IMG/VR virus record: IMGVR_UViG_3300012178_000015
Location: 1 to 29,252 of that record
DNA: 29,252 nucleotides
Strand: one strand, 5' to 3'
DNA from: a virus
Shown: piece by piece, positions 2,835-11,778 of the stretch
Layout of the letters: every line of letters starts with the position of its first letter
Numbering within the stretch: position 1 is the first letter of the stretch
Notes under the pieces: model-generated
Database searches by the model: none
The model's input: only the letters and a program-made list of their open reading frames with translations
Told to the model about the DNA's origin: nothing
Made by a program: the position numbers and the translations under genes

Positions 2835-3362
2835 TCAAGTTTTTATTTTTGTGAAAGATATTTGCTTGCTGTAATTTTCGTTTTTCTGAATAATACACGC
2901 GCCGAGCTGAAATCCAGATTGGGGAAATTCTTTTGGCGTATCAAGAAGCAGAATTTCAGTGGGCCAAAAACCTTTCTCATCCATATCGCGCAAACGAGCT
3001 TTGAGAGCCAAAATATGATTAATGGTAATCAAAAAACATATATTCGGCGCAAGATCCATTGAATGATTCAAAAATGGCCTAGCTTTGCTCCAAGGCGGGT
3101 TTGTAATAATCCAGTCATATTTATTATTTTTGGAAAGATGAAAAAAATCGAACCCCTGTTTTATTTCCGTGGTATGTATGTTTGTTTTGTCAACAAATTT
3201 TTCAATTTCAGAAACAAAATTGCCATTTCCCGCACAAGGTTCTAATACTCGCGTCGATTCTTGGATATGATAGTTTTGAACAAGATGCTCAACTATTTTT
3301 TTAGCAACATAGGAGGGAGTCTGGAAGTCATCGTTGCCGCCTTTTGGTATCAAATTCCTCAT
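2835..3362 (-). CDS. DNA adenine-N6 methyltransferase, small gamma-like type (175 aa)
   Basis: Class I SAM-dependent methyltransferase. Motif I is VLEPCAGNGNF at residues 39-49 (SAM binding), a likely acidic loop residue follows in HTTEIKQG, and the catalytic motif IV is TNPPW at 87-91, as in N6-adenine and N4-cytosine DNA methyltransferases. The N-terminus has DDFQTPSYVA, the QTP element often seen just before the SAM domain in phage orphan methylases. At 175 aa it has no evident target-recognition domain. The ATG overlaps the stop of the preceding membrane-protein gene as ATGA. Likely role: modifying phage DNA against host restriction. The function class is well supported; the target is unknown. 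Confidence 0.85.
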   Translation of the reverse strand: MRNLIPKGGNDDFQTPSYVAKKIVEHLVQNYHIQESTRVLEPCAGNGNFVSEIEKFVDKTNIHTTEIKQGFDFFHLSKNNKYDWIITNPPWSKARPFLNHSMDLAPNICFLITINHILALKARLRDMDEKGFWPTEILLLDTPKEFPQSGFQLGACIIQKNENYSKQISFTKIKT

Positions 3363-3969: not shown

Positions 3970-4221
3970 ATTTTTTTGTTATTTTTTATTTTGTTTTTTA
4001 CTCTTTCTTTATTTTTGTTATTTAAAAGTGGATTAGTCAATTTCGTTCGTATTTCACTCTTTTCAAGCTGACTCTCCACCTTTGCCTCTAGCCAGTATAC
4101 GTAGCCTATAGACACCTCCATTGTTGTTTTTTTTGGTCCAGTGGTCATCTGGACCCGTTGGGAGCCATGGCTCCTTTCCCGTTTCGGCCTTGTATAGTTC
4201 CTCTGCGTCGTATTTGCTCAT
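3966..4221 (-). CDS. Small phage protein with YVYWLEAK motif, frameshifted at an A8 run (about 84 aa if joined)
   Basis: The gene starts at the ATG at 4221, overlapping the previous stop as ATGA, and reads MSKYDAEELYKAETGKEPW... The frame breaks at eight A (plus-strand T8, 4127-4134). The continuing frame carries SIGYVYWLEAKVESQ and ends at 3966, where its stop overlaps the next ATG. Removing one A joins them into 255 nt, 84 aa. Small phage proteins ending in a YVxWLE-type helix after an N-terminal YKxETG element are familiar to me, but I recall no function. A stand-alone reading from 4148 (60 aa) would lose the conserved-looking N-terminus. Confidence 0.55.
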
Positions 4222-4334
4222 AGTGTTATCTTTCCGTTTAGTGTTATTGTTGCGTTAAAAAAGTAGAACCAATCAGAGCTATCAACCCCGCTCTCATCGG
4301 TGGTTTCGTTATCGTTTGGATTATCTGTTTTCAT
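4218..4334 (-). CDS. Very small hypothetical protein (38 aa)
   Basis: Short open frame MKTDNPNDNETTDESGVDSS... ending NATITLNGKITL. It is acidic at the N-terminus and hydrophobic in the middle (DWFYFF). Its stop overlaps the ATG of the 4221 gene as ATGA, the same junction type as the rest of this operon; that junction is the main reason to believe it. It is the first gene below the GC-rich island. Confidence 0.35.
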   Translation of the reverse strand: MKTDNPNDNETTDESGVDSSDWFYFFNATITLNGKITL

Positions 4335-4341
4335 AATTGTA

Positions 4342-4390
4342 TTTTTAGGGTTACGGACGAGCGGTGTGCTAGTCCTTGTAGTTAGAAGAA
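4342..4390 (-). other. Degenerate attC-like palindrome at the end of the GC-rich island
   Basis: On the minus strand, AAC, five bases, GGACTAGC, a short loop and GCTCGTCC follow the coding end of the 4369 gene. The two arms pair except for one mismatch. The expected downstream GTT box is missing (GTAACCC instead). It is compatible with a decayed attC site at the lower boundary of the island, but weak alone. Confidence 0.25.
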
Positions 4391-4611
4391 AGAATTGGCC
4401 GAAGCGTTATTAGTGCAACCAAGGCGTAAAGGAGTATCACGCTTCCAGTCACTATTGATCCGCAATCAAAACCCCGATAAATTCCCACCCCGAGTTGCAG
4501 ATACCCTCCAAATATCAAAGCGAGAATAACACCCCAAGGCGTATCTCTAACCATACGGAGTAGCCAATGCGATTGACGCGCTGGTGTTGATCTTGAGTCT
4601 TTATTTCGCAT
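4369..4611 (-). CDS. Small two-span membrane protein (80 aa)
   Basis: Basic N-terminus (MRNKDSRSTPARQSHW), then two hydrophobic segments at about 26-45 (WGVILALIFGGYLQLGVGIY) and 51-73 (GSIVTGSVILLYALVALITL) joined by a short loop with one Cys, and a short polar tail. The gene overlaps the end of the 4601 gene by 11 nt, so the two are probably co-expressed. Base composition is clearly GC-richer than the flanking phage DNA. Function unknown; an integral inner-membrane protein is likely. Confidence 0.55.
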   Translation of the reverse strand: MRNKDSRSTPARQSHWLLRMVRDTPWGVILALIFGGYLQLGVGIYRGFDCGSIVTGSVILLYALVALITLRPILSSNYKD

Positions 4612-4999
4612 GGCTATCCTTGTTGTTAGCCGAAGAACGAAGCTCGCGCATCTTCCCCGTGGTGTTGCCGTAGTCGCCTTGGTGCCACAGCGTTGTCAGT
4701 TCGTCCCAGTGATCCACGTATGCCGCCCATACCGGCGACGCGAGCCGCAGGATCGGGAAGCAGTTGAGCACGGTCGGAGCTTTTTTGATCAGCCGCACGC
4801 ATCGGCCAAGATCGGGAGCATCGGATGGAGTAGAGTCGGCCCATCTGGATTTCAGGACGCTTCCCGCGATAGCTACGCTTGCCATGTATTGAGAGCTTAC
4901 GCCCGTATCGTCGCCCGTGAGCCATTCCGCAACGGCTAACAAGTCGCTGGTGGACAACGGCATCCCGCCGTCCTGTTGGTGTGTTTCTGGTGGTTTCAT
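4601..4999 (-). CDS. Conserved phage/prophage hypothetical protein (132 aa)
   Basis: Contains LAVAEWLTGDDTGVSS near residue 21, then APDLGRCVRLI and SPVWAAYVDHWDELTTLW. From memory this is a widespread protein of proteobacterial phages and prophages with no known function. The ATG at 4999 is used here; an internal ATG at 4963 (MPLSTSDLL) has a better upstream AGGA and may be the true start. Composition and similarity both point to a source outside the AT-rich phage backbone. Confidence 0.7.
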   Translation of the reverse strand: MKPPETHQQDGGMPLSTSDLLAVAEWLTGDDTGVSSQYMASVAIAGSVLKSRWADSTPSDAPDLGRCVRLIKKAPTVLNCFPILRLASPVWAAYVDHWDELTTLWHQGDYGNTTGKMRELRSSANNKDSHAK

Positions 5000-5007
5000 A
5001 AGTTTTC

Positions 5008-5040
5008 AGTGTTGGCGGCGACCGCTGATGAGCGGTTGCC
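5008..5040 (-). other. Strong intergenic hairpin, possibly a degenerate attC
   Basis: After the methyltransferase-like gene the minus strand can fold TTGGC-A-ACCGCT against AGCGGT-C-GCC(GCCAA), with loop CATC. It is preceded by AAC and the five bases GCCTA, the same layout as the better attC-like sites, but no GTT follows. There is no U-run, so it is not a standard terminator. Confidence 0.35.
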
Positions 5041-5045
5041 AAGAT

Positions 5046-5747
5046 TTAGGCGTTCGTCTGACGGAATTTGCCGCCCCATTGTTCGGCCATTGCGCGGGCT
5101 ATCCCGGCGTAAGTGGTCGAGCGTAGTTTCCAGCGGTCGGCACTTGGCGCGAGTTTGTTCTGTCCGCCATCCGTTTGATTTTTCCACCGCTTTTTTCCGT
5201 CGATGATTCGCGGCGGGATTGATTCGGTGGCGTGGAGTCTTGGAAGCCCTTTGAGCCAGAGACAGGTCGCCTTGCTTGCATCGTGGCCGTATTGGTGAGG
5301 TTGGATGATTTGATCCGGCTTGCGGATCTTACTGGAGATGACCGACACGGGATTTTCTATCGCAATTTTCGGGATGTCCGCAGCCATCAAGAGTCGAACG
5401 AAGTCCAGCGCGGCGTCGGTTCCTTCCCATCCTCTTCCCCGGTCGTTCCAGTGGATTCCCGAGACGGACAGGAAGGTGCATGGCGGGTGCGCTATCATCA
5501 GATCCCATCCCTCGTTTATGACTTCTTCCACTTTGCATTCTAAGTGCCACTGTTTGGCGGCATCGGTTGGCAATACGTCGCAGCTCCAGGCGTCATGTCC
5601 TAAGCACCGGAAGGCATCGCGCACCGTCCCAGAATACTCGCACGCCACCAAAACCCGCAAAGACGAACAAGACGGCGCATACAATCCCAGCTCTCCATCT
5701 AAACGGAGCGGTGGGGAAGTTAGGAAGTCTGATTGTGCAGCGATCAT
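5046..5747 (-). CDS. Phage DNA cytosine methyltransferase-like protein (233 aa)
   Basis: Begins RVLVACEYSGTVRDAF at residue 31 (glycine-containing SAM-type loop), has AHPPCTFLSVSG at 86-97 with the PPC element of C5-cytosine methylases, and IENP at 130-133 where C5 enzymes have ENV. The C-terminus holds the WKLRSTTYAGIARAMAEQWG tail typical of this phage family, usually annotated as a DNA (cytosine) methyltransferase. The ATG at 5747 was chosen because it overlaps the DUF551 gene stop as ATGA; a longer frame from 5849 would overlap that gene by over 100 nt. Genes of this kind are common in proteobacterial phages. Activity is unproven because several C5 motifs are not evident. Confidence 0.75.
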   Translation of the reverse strand: MIAAQSDFLTSPPLRLDGELGLYAPSCSSLRVLVACEYSGTVRDAFRCLGHDAWSCDVLPTDAAKQWHLECKVEEVINEGWDLMIAHPPCTFLSVSGIHWNDRGRGWEGTDAALDFVRLLMAADIPKIAIENPVSVISSKIRKPDQIIQPHQYGHDASKATCLWLKGLPRLHATESIPPRIIDGKKRWKNQTDGGQNKLAPSADRWKLRSTTYAGIARAMAEQWGGKFRQTNA

Positions 5748-6001
5748 TTCGGGGGCTGGGATGTATGGCCTGAAGCGTTCGGCGGAAAAGGAAACGGCAT
5801 CCAGTGAGTTGGCGTCTCCATTGGCAGACTCGTCCCGTAGATGAACCATTGGCCTCTCCCGTTATGGTATCCCGCTCCCGTTTTCCCTGCATCCCCCACA
5901 ATCAAGGTGGTGCGTTTCGGGGCGTCTTTGGCGGGCAACCAAGAGCCGAACAAGGCGCTGCTACCAACAGACGGAGCGGTGGAGTTTATTTGTGTATTCA
6001 T
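5744..6001 (-). CDS. DUF551-like phage protein (85 aa)
   Basis: The pattern LFGSWLPAKDAPKRTTLIV...GRGQWFIYGTS...PTHWMPFPFPP matches DUF551, a short phage domain beginning with a W...LP element, with a central beta strand and ending THWMPLP-PP. Function is unknown in the family. The ATG at 6001 is preferred; extension to GTG at 6031 would overlap the upstream gene. It is coupled to the methyltransferase-like gene by an ATGA overlap, so both probably moved as one cassette. Confidence 0.7.
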   Translation of the reverse strand: MNTQINSTAPSVGSSALFGSWLPAKDAPKRTTLIVGDAGKTGAGYHNGRGQWFIYGTSLPMETPTHWMPFPFPPNASGHTSQPPK

Positions 6002-6020
6002 AAGTTTATTGACCGGGACT

Positions 6021-6260
6021 CTATGAGTCACCTTGAGCGTTCGATGAGATAGCAGAGAAGAATCTGTCGCCCTTTCCCGTGGGTCGCACGGTCATGTGGT
6101 CAAATCCCATCCTGTCGCCTAATCGTTTCCATGCGGCGTTAGCGTTCTCCTGTGGGCTTTGTGGGGTTCCACATTGTAGCATCATCATTTTCACGGGTTT
6201 GCTGGCGGCGATGAGCGATTCAAGATCGCTCGTTGTCATTTCATAGTTTTGTCTGTTCAT
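6021..6260 (-). CDS. Hypothetical phage protein (79 aa)
   Basis: Reads MNRQNYEMTTSDLESLIAAS..., then VKMMMLQCGTPQSPQENANA and WKRLGDRMGFDHMTVRP. It resembles the short early-region proteins of proteobacterial phages, but I recall no function. Composition is GC-rich like the rest of the island. The coding end (ATCGAACGCTCA) includes an AAC box whose 7-mer ATCGAAC is the reverse complement, with one mismatch, of GTTCAAT at the gene's upstream border. That is what an integron cassette would show. Confidence 0.55.
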   Translation of the reverse strand: MNRQNYEMTTSDLESLIAASKPVKMMMLQCGTPQSPQENANAAWKRLGDRMGFDHMTVRPTGKGDRFFSAISSNAQGDS

Positions 6261-6271
6261 AATAATTAAGA

Positions 6272-6330
6272 ATTGAACAACGGGATGGACAGCACCCGCT
6301 ATCGCGGTGCGTCATCCTTGCCGTTAGCGG
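6272..6330 (-). repeat. attC-like site 3, between the 6299 and 6021 genes
   Basis: Minus-strand order: CGCTAAC (R''), 5-nt spacer (plus 6318-6322), L'' (plus 6306-6317), short loop, L' (plus 6283-6296), 4-nt spacer, GTTCAAT (R'). L' and L'' pair over 12 bp if one G (6288) and one A (6291) are left extrahelical. The stop codon of the 6299 gene lies inside the site, as is common in cassettes. Confidence 0.55.
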
Positions 6331-6559
6331 GAAGAATGTTTTCAAGTCGTTTGTCCTCGATTACTTTATCTCCCCAAGGAATACATTCACCGTTCCATCC
6401 AGTTGGAAGTTGATTCAGCGCGGTGATTTCTTTGGCGTGATTTAGAGTACATTCCTCGTCCCCATCGCGAATGATGCTTTGCGCTTGATTCTCTGCATCC
6501 TGAGCAGATTCCGCTGCAATAACGGTTTCAAATTCGATTGTGACTTTGTAGATTTTCAT
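6299..6559 (-). CDS. Hypothetical phage protein (86 aa)
   Basis: Begins MKIYKVTIEFETVIAAESAQD, a predicted beta strand followed by an Ala/Glu-rich helix, then EITALNQLPTGWNGECIPWG, an element often seen in short phage proteins, and ends NGKDDAPR. Function not known. The gene is flanked by an exact 8-bp inverted repeat, CCGCTAAC (plus 6590-6597) and GTTAGCGG (plus 6323-6330). These are the two ends that would join in a circular integron cassette of about 320 bp. Confidence 0.6.
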   Translation of the reverse strand: MKIYKVTIEFETVIAAESAQDAENQAQSIIRDGDEECTLNHAKEITALNQLPTGWNGECIPWGDKVIEDKRLENILPANGKDDAPR

Positions 6560-6589
6560 AGGTATTGGTTGGTAGTTCGGAAGAAAAGA

Positions 6590-6677
6590 CCGCTAACAAG
6601 ACGTAGATCCCGACGCCGAGACAGCTTTCTGATTAAATTTGGTATTCATAGCGGCGCGGGATTACTTAGCGTTATGC
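6590..6677 (-). repeat. attC-like site 2, between the 6662 and 6299 genes
   Basis: Best example in the window. Outer boxes AAC (plus gtt 6671-6673) and GTT (plus aac 6595-6597) are each separated by exactly 5 nt from inner arms at plus 6603-6618 and 6652-6665. The arms pair over 14 bp (CGCCG/CGGCG, ATCCCG/CGGGAT, GTA/TAC), leaving two extrahelical bases on one arm only (G6606, A6613). This R-spacer-L layout with extrahelical bases is the hallmark of integron attC sites. The stop codon of the upstream gene lies in the first arm. Confidence 0.7.
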
Positions 6678-6997
6678 AAAGAAAGAGCCGCCCTAGCGCG
6701 TTCGGCTATGTTGATACCTCCGCGATACGCTGGATTTTTCCTCATTAGTGCCTCCATTTCGGACAGCGTTTCCTCTAGTGCTTCGATTAGCGGATTGACT
6801 TGAATGTCTCTCTCCGCTGTCCCATATCCCGCAATAAAAGCATGTATTAACTCTGCATAGTATGCGTGATCTTGCTCGAAGTCGTAAGCCTCACACCACC
6901 TCTGAGCCTTGTGGATTTGCTGTATAGGTTCGGGGATGGGCGGAGCAAACTCTGATCCGTCTGGCAAGTCTTTGAATATGTCTGATGCGTTTTTCAT
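6662..6997 (-). CDS. Hypothetical phage protein (111 aa)
   Basis: Mostly helical and acidic. It has a proline-rich N-terminal part (DGSEFAPPIPEPIQQIHKAQ), then YDFEQDHAYYAELIHAFIAG and LEETLSEMEALMRKNP, ending RARAALSLHNAK. No enzymatic motif, membrane span or signal peptide is seen. The ATG at 6997 is 34 nt beyond the GTT end of attC-like site 1, so the gene starts right after the proposed cassette boundary. GC-rich composition. Function unknown. Confidence 0.6.
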   Translation of the reverse strand: MKNASDIFKDLPDGSEFAPPIPEPIQQIHKAQRWCEAYDFEQDHAYYAELIHAFIAGYGTAERDIQVNPLIEALEETLSEMEALMRKNPAYRGGINIAERARAALSLHNAK

Positions 6998-7030
6998 TAT
7001 TTTTATTTGGTTGATTTAGTGTTTGTCGAA

Positions 7031-7084
7031 TTAGAACCATGCGATTGTAGCAACGGAAGACCGCGCTACATCTTCGCGTTCTGT
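7031..7084 (-). repeat. attC-like site 1, at the upper boundary of the GC-rich island
   Basis: Minus-strand order: ACAGAAC, 5-nt spacer GCGAA, arm GATGTAGC, loop of 13 nt, arm GCTACAATC, 5-nt spacer GCATG, GTTCTAA. The arms pair over 8 bp with one extrahelical base, the outer boxes pair over 5 bp (AGAAC/GTTCT), and both spacers are 5 nt. Below it base composition switches from AT-rich to GC-rich. It was also tested as a tRNA and rejected. Confidence 0.6.
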
Positions 7085-10460: not shown

Positions 10461-10594
10461 TTATCTATTATAGATAAACATTTTTTTCGAGTTTCTGAAT
10501 GGAGGTTTATTTTTTTCAAAATTATTTTGAAACCATTCCCATTTTCCAAGAGATTCAGGCCATCTAGTTGAACTTTATAGGCTTGGAGAATCAT
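10461..10594 (-). CDS. Tiny Trp-rich protein, probably frameshifted (about 44 aa if joined)
   Basis: The ATG at 10594 overlaps the Dam gene stop as ATGA and reads MILQAYK. In the same frame it can run 48 codons to 10448, but from about 10573 a different frame (SSTRWPESLGKWEWFQNNFE..., ending FIYNR) has mostly A or T at third codon positions and looks far more protein-like. One extra A after TATAAA would join the start to it in exactly 45 codons. Both readings are unproven. Function unknown. Confidence 0.35.
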
Positions 10595-11640
10595 ACTAAT
10601 TTGTAATAGAAATATTCACCAACATTAACACTCTTACCTTTCATTCTACTAAAGCTAGAGTTTCCTGATGATATAATTTCCCTACCTGTATATTTAATAT
10701 TTATTACCTCTTCGTTATCCGTAGAATTAACACCATTAATATTCATAAACCATGAACAAGGAAGTTAAAATTAAAGGAGGAACGAGTATGCATCCCCTTT
10801 TCACAGCACGGGTTCCCAAGGTTCGCCACATTGAGTCTGCCTGTTCTTAGGCTCTCGACCACCCGAAGGCGTGGCCTCCCGACCTCGATGTGCAGTAGGC
10901 CGGGTCCTCCCAGCCATCCTGTCATCCGTGTTTCTACTGTGCCTCCTAAAGTCATAAAAGTTTTAACCAGTCAGTCGTGTGAACGCGAAGACGCGCCACA
11001 CACTTCAGTGTTCATCTACCCAAGGCAGAAGACCATCGAATGATATATTACCAAAATATAATGCCTTGGTATTCGTATATGGCGGGTCTAAATAAACAAC
11101 GTCTTTTTCGCCTTTTGGGGAAATACTCCCAAACGAACCGCAAGTAAAATCAATATCTTTCCCCTTCATTAATTCTGAGTAATACGATATAACTTCTTCG
11201 ACCGTTTTGGGTTGCATTCCGGTTCTTCCGAAATGATGTGACGTATTAAATTCCCCTTTTCTATTGTATCTAATAGTTCCATTATAGCAGGTTCTCGTTA
11301 GAAAGTAGAAAATGAATGGGTCTTTGGTTTTATTGTAAGTTTCTCGCTCCGTATAAAAGAAATTCGGATCTTTTTGTAGTTCCTCCCATTTCTCCCTATA
11401 CGAAAGGATTAATTTTCGGGGATCGTCTTTAACGATTTTTAAAATATTAATTAAGCTATCGTTTTTATCCGAGAGTCTAAACTTTTTAACATTTGCGTTA
11501 TCTTTTAATAGTCTGAAAAATACAGAACCTCCACCTACAAATGGTTCATAATAAGTTTCAATTTCCCTTGGAAAGTGTGATGTTATTTTTGCGGCGATTG
11601 GGCGTTTTGAGCCAGTCCACTTTATTAATGGTGTATTTAT
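10591..11640 (-). pseudogene. Dam-type DNA adenine methyltransferase, interrupted by a 252-nt insertion
   Basis: The 5' part reads INTPLIKWTGSKRPIAAKI, YYEPFVGGGSVFF (SAM motif I with the family's EPFVGGG), and DVVYLDPPYTNTKALYFGN (catalytic DPPY), then NISFDGLLPWVD. There the insertion brings an in-frame stop at 11005. The 3' part resumes at 10758 with CSWFMNINGVNSTDNEEV and REIISSGNSSFSRMKG, the family's C-terminal SGNSSF element. Removing 10760-11011 leaves 798 nt, 265 codons plus stop, the normal Dam (D12 class) length. There is no ATG, GTG or TTG in frame at the 5' end; AAGGAG lies 8 nt before an ATA codon at 11640. As it stands only a truncated protein could be made unless the insert is removed from DNA or RNA. 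Confidence 0.8.
10760..11011 (-). mobile_element. 252-nt GC-rich structured RNA-like insertion element within the Dam gene
   Basis: The boundaries come from the split reading frame: the left side abuts ATGA of the gene on the minus strand, the right side precedes TTGTTCATGG. The insert is much GC-richer than its surroundings. Nested complementarity (plus coordinates): 10764-10770 with 10961-10967; 10775-10780 with 10942-10947; 10802-10811 with 10926-10930/10937-10941. Internal hairpins include one closed by a UUCG loop (10857-10876) and GCCU-AAGAAC-AGGC. The UUCG and G-U pairs favour the minus strand as the RNA. Insertion next to ATGA recalls HEARO/IscB-associated omega RNA elements of IS200/IS605 type, but no IscB, TnpB or TnpA is present. 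Group I and II intron cores were not found. Confidence 0.65.
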
Positions 11641-11778
11641 TCTGATAACTCCTTTTCTTTCTTCTTCCTATTTTGGCTTGAACGCCTTCCGTAAATTTTC
11701 GCTGAAAACTTAGAGAAGTCCATCTGCCAAAGGTTGGTTTGGATTTTTTTCTTTTGATTCGCTATTATTTTCGACCAT
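11641..11778 (-). pseudogene. Broken small ORF upstream of the Dam gene
   Basis: MVENNSESKEK starts at the ATG at 11778 and stops after 22 codons. A neighbouring frame then reads KPTFGRWTSLSFQRKFTEGV and GRRKKRS, which looks protein-like. An extra A in the A7 run near 11741-11747 would connect them. The 3' end is unclear because the frames run into the methyltransferase start region. Function unknown; treated as a damaged or mis-sequenced gene. Confidence 0.3.

Follow-up and report, generated by a model that had tools for sequence, protein, structure and literature searches.

The hairpin at positions 6591 to 6677 is very probably a genuine attC site of the integron family, marking a cassette boundary in a reversed array without an integrase (CALIN) in the genome of a tailed phage. 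This reading of the sequence concerns IMG/VR virus record IMGVR_UViG_3300012178_000015, of which the whole stretch of 29,252 nucleotides (the window) was analyzed. The carrier is a phage, its virus record containing terminase, PhoH and nucleotide kinase genes. The assignment to attC, made in the first-pass annotation, was supported by covariance scores, by sibling sites in the same island, by a relative with an empty site and by precise cassette insertions or deletions in other phages. A survey of viral contigs suggests that viral cassettes are usually reversed relative to their genes, with the attC site at the 5' end of the gene.

The site was detected on the plus strand by a structural scan and by two covariance models. 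It consists of the R'' box CGCTAAC, a 5-nt spacer, a 14-bp stem, a second 5-nt spacer and the R' box G|TTATGC, with the hairpin proper at 6595-6673. The AAC box (6595-6597) is followed by the spacer AAGAC and the first arm (6603-6618), GTA-g-ATCCCG-a-CGCCG. The second arm (6652-6665), CGGCGCGGGATTAC, is followed by the spacer TTAGC and the GTT box (6671-6673), with a predicted cut after G6671. The reported pairing of the arms over 14 bp with only G6606 and A6613 extrahelical was confirmed to the base (14 Watson-Crick pairs), and the two 5-nt spacers and AAC/GTT outer boxes were likewise found in the sequence. As in attC sites, the boxes end in AAC and start with GTT and are mutually complementary, the two unpaired spacers are short and similar in length (5 and 5 nt), and the extrahelical bases lie on one arm, after 3 bp and then about 6 bp later. 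Their arm positions, 3 and 10, are like those of class 1 references. The R''/R' complementarity (GCTAAC/GTTATGC) is 4 bp in the inserted form, compared with 5 bp in sibling sites. The first extrahelical base on the bottom strand is almost always G in bacterial attC sites but C in the window (G6606 lies on the top strand); this G is reported as conserved yet replaceable in the VCR (PMC2727003).

A chance origin of the helix had been called very unlikely, and 1000 Markov shuffles of the GC-rich island yielded no such 14-bp site. At least 14 bp was reached in 3 of 200 shuffles of the whole window. When R-box pairing was also demanded, the island contained 4 sites against 0.0045 expected. Single-strand folding, suggested as a check, gave a more stable structure than any of 200 shuffles for either strand (z -3.0 and -3.4). 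The structure of lowest predicted energy, however, has a shifted outer stem that pairs CGCTAA with the spacer-side TTAGCG and not AAC with GTT.

The covariance search proposed in the first-pass annotation was done with two independent models, R1, built from 18 bacterial attC sites (IntI1-type loci), and R2, built from 31 viral sites. The named site scored 27.3 bits with R1 (E=2.6e-4 over the window, unfiltered) and 20.7 bits with R2. Both scores exceed 20 bits, the threshold of Qi et al. (2023; PMC9892861), with which they are comparable in kind only, because the models were our own and not those of IntegronFinder. The best matches of both models in the window were all on the plus strand, and only two window sites had E values of 0.05 or below. 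R1 with Infernal default filters gave no match in the window, but the unfiltered search does find the sites. This miss is probably due to the long loops, and a routine pipeline could therefore overlook the array. No Rfam family matched the window, nor did any match the 246-bp insertion described below.

Two siblings with the same geometry were found on the plus strand. The site at 4545-4631 (CTAAC / 5 / GGA-g-TAGCC-a-ATGCGA / 5 / G|TTAGCC) has a 14-bp stem with extrahelical bases at arm positions 3 and 9 and scored 18.1 bits with R1 (E 0.032 over the window) and 17.6 bits with R2. The site at 5662-5783 (CGAAC / 5 / GGC-g-CATAC-a-ATCCCAGC / 6 / G|TTCGG) has a 16-bp stem and an R box of 5 bp in the structural scan, and scored 12.3 bits with R1 (E 0.65 over the window and 0.073 over the island). 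It adjoins a DNA methyltransferase gene, just upstream in the direction of the gene. Two sites with E <= 0.05 and a third recognized by structure, from 4545 to 6677, qualify the cluster as a phage CALIN. A weaker attC-like site (6276-6326, plus strand) lies between the genes 6299-6559 and 6021-6260; its scores of 10.5 bits (R1, island search) and 10.7 bits (R2, window) are alone near chance level. The short attC-like site at 7031-7084 (plus strand) has 5/5 spacers, a stem of 3 bp, an extrahelical T and 5 bp, and the R box AGAAC/GTTCT, and scored only 4.8 bits with R1. A doubtful site at 5945-6045 (plus strand), near the 5' end of the gene 5744-6031, scored 9.5 bits with R1 in the island search only. 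The terminal loops of the window sites are long, and by their first extrahelical base, loops and scores these sites are weak members of the attC family. Outside the island, a weak attC-like site of the same polarity, which may be due to chance, is located at 2993-3101 inside a methyltransferase-like gene (2835-3362) and is also present in the relative L085.

The sites lie in an inserted cassette island at 4005-7078 (plus strand, 3074 bp), whose center has a GC content of about 50-57% compared with about 30% in the genome nearby. A relative with 98-99% identity in the surrounding sequence, IMGVR_UViG_3300023235_000146 (L085), lacks the island and has an exact junction in its place; when phage pairs are compared singly in this way, insertion and loss are indistinguishable for each difference. 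The right junction is the G|TT (7078|7079) of the site 7031-7084. Both island ends have a 4-nt overlap, TTCT, in common at the empty-site junction, and the empty site at the left end has no G|TT (the target reads T|TTC). Therefore, the island may have entered by something other than a clean IntI event. The relative L118 keeps the right-end site and 6990-7079, followed by a different small gene. The two phages are near-identical, and the alignment of window 6990-7079 with L118:252-342 comprises a common leader and start codon, with unrelated genes from the ATG onward.

All island genes are open frames on the minus strand. The first unit holds a small possible membrane protein gene (4369-4611) for which no family match was found, followed by a phrog_1229-like cassette gene of no assigned function (4601-4999; PHROGs E 1.5e-21). 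The DNA methyltransferase gene (5046-5660) matches phrog_757 (E 1e-61, residues 1-202 of the shortened frame), and its true start is probably near 5660 rather than 5849. The DUF551 gene (5744-6031) matches Pfam PF04448 with an E value of 4.7e-5, above the cut-off of that family. Three small genes follow at 6021-6260, 6299-6559, which starts roughly 36 nt from the named site's AAC box, and 6662-6997, for which no relatives were found in GenBank phages or viral contigs. The last codons and stop of 6662-6997 extend into the named site. Its stop codon (6662-6664) indeed lies inside an arm, as the first-pass annotation had noted, but the likeness to true cassettes drawn from it did not hold. In this site, the extrahelical bases are on the arm farther from 6662-6997, the gene that ends within it, so that the site is reversed in comparison with bacterial cassettes.

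A second insertion, GC rich and without a convincing gene, is located at 10765-11010 (plus strand, 246 bp). It begins with TTAAAATTAAAGGAGGAACGAGTATG, lies between two G|TT points and is missing from the 99.7% identical IMGVR_UViG_3300022885_000045 (L119), which reads GGAAG|TTCATC where the window reads GGAAG|TTAAAA...CAGTG|TTCATC. An attC-like site of the same polarity closes this cassette (10965-11012, plus strand; 8 bp in the structural scan; R2 12.8 bits, E 0.36 over the window). No match to the insertion was found elsewhere in phages and viral contigs. The surrounding stretch, 10591-11714, is a second hypervariable region, different parts of which are missing in L085, L118 and L119; within it, L118 appears to be deleted between two copies of GAAGT.

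Cassette units were also seen in other viral contigs. L175 and L182 are identical over 1000 bp on the left and 400 bp on the right and differ by one 534-bp cassette, which runs from G|TTAGGC to G|TTAGGC and whose own ends match over 12 bp. It contains an attC site and, on the other strand, an HNH-like open frame that has the attC site at its 5' end. Among the matches listed, the edges of homology in viral pairs fell at the R' cut for 21 of the 45 site edges and at R'' for 4 of 45. Together with the 534-bp difference, this indicates that the moving unit consists of an attC site and the gene reading away from it, in agreement with the unit predicted from the extrahelical bases. Two other candidate tests were rejected. 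Cassette ends do not serve as a marker of polarity, as the end-matching test is symmetric. Genes that cross the cut do not disprove reversed units; the commonest position for the TAA of viral genes is with its end exactly at the cut (34/70 viral sites among the matches listed). Some island genes extend a few codons past the expected cut. The position of the stop codon cannot decide polarity, because bacterial cassettes overlap the equivalent box likewise.

It is somewhat unlikely, in our judgment, that the attC sites are fossils that have ceased to recombine in this phage, the whole island having been transferred in one piece by homologous or illegitimate recombination. The degeneracy of the sites and the 4-nt TTCT microhomology at an empty site without G|TT would fit such a history, as would L118, which diverges from the window at the start codon at 6997, away from the cut point or any other recombination cut. 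However, the same genome carries the 246-bp insertion between G|TT points that distinguishes it from the 99.7% identical L119, and the start of the L118 cassette, GTTCTAATT, matches R'' of the site 7031-7084 over 9 bp. Both argue against the fossil reading.

In the island sites, the plus strand carries the extrahelical bases on its 5' arm, a position that marks the top strand in integrons; the genes are on the minus strand. In the VCR, transfer of the extrahelical bases to the opposite arm also switched the strand and box at which recombination takes place (Bouvier et al. 2009, PMC2727003). In none of the island sites did a gene run along the attC site with the site at its 3' end, as in a bacterial-type cassette. 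In 80 loci surrounding IntI1-like integrases, the structural scan located the extrahelical bases at position 3 and at position 10 or 11 of the arm. Every one of the 44 sites in these loci whose stems were at least 12 bp long had the same polarity.

For the survey of polarity, one canonical-attC motif was scanned over IMG/VR (at least 120 loci). As a bacterial control, the same motif was scanned over 369 genomes of one bacterial class, which gave 90-odd matches compared with 4 for a backward control motif. Genes were called identically in both sets with our own calls, which reproduced the GenBank calls in MW202573 and TJE1. Among the 117 distinct viral sites in the matches listed, both flanking genes were opposite to the site in 72 and the same way in 7. 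The bacterial genome sites showed 3 opposite and 34 the same way (Fisher P = 5.6e-19 versus the viral 72/7 among the matches listed). Counted per contig cluster, the ratio of opposite to same was 65/10 for viruses (among the matches listed) and 4/41 for bacteria (P = 5e-18). Two of the three bacterial exceptions were on one phage-like contig, which carries genes for terminase, portal and tape measure. From one site to the next, viral arrays had the same polarity in 75 cases and different polarity in 0 (among the matches listed). Of 10 opposite-strand genes tested that flank the viral matches listed, 9 belonged to methyltransferase and DHH families; these assignments fall on the called strand, which confirms the direction of the flanking genes. 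On the called strand, the viral flanking genes included at least 6 DNA methyltransferases plus DHH phosphoesterases (among the matches listed). Several of the surveyed viral contigs carry tail fibre, portal, primase or phage transposase genes. Viral arrays of eight and nine same-polarity attC sites with small genes on the opposite strand are located at L173:392-5175 and L204:366-4149. On one contig classed as viral, an integron integrase relative (L150:11089-11982; 48% identity to IntI1) lies near an attC-motif site; it is probably a prophage flank.

These counts already disfavor an ordinary phage CALIN, in which bacterial cassettes were caught by chance and the reversal is an accident of a few reversed genes. 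This is improbable even though published phage CALINs can have divergent sites and more than one ORF from site to site (Qi et al. 2023; PMC9892861), TJE1 is canonical, and 7-11 viral sites are canonical (among the matches listed). Chance capture would not lead one to expect 72 viral sites against 7 (among the matches listed) with the reverse in bacteria, a ratio of 65 to 10 by contig cluster (among the matches listed), or reversed arrays that reach at least 9 sites with successive polarity at 75:0. It is most improbable that the hairpins are other RNA or DNA elements resembling attC (terminators, attenuators or processing sites); they do lie between codirectional genes, contain several gene stops and form a stable single-strand fold, but in geometry, box sequences and covariance scores they match attC. 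The exact gain or loss of single cassettes between G|TT points in relatives, like the breakpoints located at the R' cut, calls for a recombination site, and the long loops and absence of T-runs speak against terminators.

The reversed attC array resembles the attC sites and cassettes of bacterial integrons (class 1 and chromosomal) in its R and L boxes, 5- to 6-nt spacers and G|TT cut, in the placement of its extrahelical bases, which follow 3 and about 9 pairs of one arm, and in small genes between sites with matching cassette ends. It differs in that the attC sites are reversed relative to the genes and located at their 5' ends, and in the lack of an integrase and attI. Phage CALINs have been published for TJE1, PH101/H101, P12002L and MW202573, and IntI1 recombined 5 of 6 tested sites (Qi et al. 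2023; PMC9892861). There, too, attC clusters lack an integrase and carry DNA methyltransferase cargo, but the accessible text does not mention a reversal relative to the genes. Two of these published examples were also reversed when reread here: in the GenBank-annotated MW202573 and Pseudoalteromonas phage H101 (PH101), the attC sites are opposite to the genes, whereas the third phage taken as a control, TJE1, is canonical. In P12002L, neither the structural scan nor the covariance model gave a site, and other GenBank phages with genes common to viral arrays had no detectable sites. To the known phage CALINs, the window and its relatives add an empty-site relative, precise cassette indels and a survey of polarity. 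The inverted VCR (Bouvier et al. 2009, PMC2727003), in which recombination shifts box and strand, predicts the cut here; it was made by mutation and is poorly active, whereas in viruses the inverted form, relative to the genes, is natural and the majority state (among the matches listed). No report of reversed or antisense phage cassettes was found in the literature searched, whose coverage mostly leaves out subscription papers and preprints. Phage attC sites and integrase-less arrays are already known, but a majority-reversed viral polarity appears to be undescribed.

With the plus strand as the top strand and the island genes on the minus strand, the mobile unit is attC-leader-gene, extending to the next G|TT. 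An integron integrase would fold and cut the minus strand, i.e., the coding strand, which would here be the recombinogenic bottom strand, and the expected cut would be the complement of G6671|T on the folded minus strand. An IntI1-related integrase gene was searched for in the window and not found, and the enzyme is therefore presumably supplied by the host or another element. Cutting would probably occur when the coding strand is single stranded during phage replication. The phage operon, rather than an integron promoter, would drive expression of the cassette genes. The difference between viruses and bacteria may be due to replication, as the lagging-strand template, on which attC folding is favored (PMC8946536), would be the coding strand for genes oriented along the direction of the fork. 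Alternatively, polarity may perpetuate itself across arrays: an ordinary bacterial cassette that entered a viral array would be transcribed in antisense by the phage, and so would a phage cassette that entered attI be transcribed in antisense from Pc. We tentatively propose, with slightly less than even confidence, that viruses may hold their own pool of cassettes with functionally inverted polarity, in which the coding strand is recombinogenic and orientation is a barrier to expression. Viral and bacterial cassettes would recombine across this barrier, yet be silent in each other's arrays.

Integron polarity is considered to ensure that the integron promoter can drive expression of any captured gene. 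Should most viral cassettes indeed be reversed, phages would carry a partly separate, self-consistent pool and would not be mere couriers of bacterial cassettes. Such a pool would have the attC site ahead of the gene, and DNA methyltransferases would be frequent in it, judging from the larger genes tested. The annotation of phage CALINs would change, with the recombining strand and box becoming predictable, and the channeling of integron gene flow between phages and bacteria would be open to direct experiment.

Near the start of the window, a tandem repeat of ACTTTTCCATGCCAACCTTGCGTAC-like units at 100-330 is translated as a repetitive frame.
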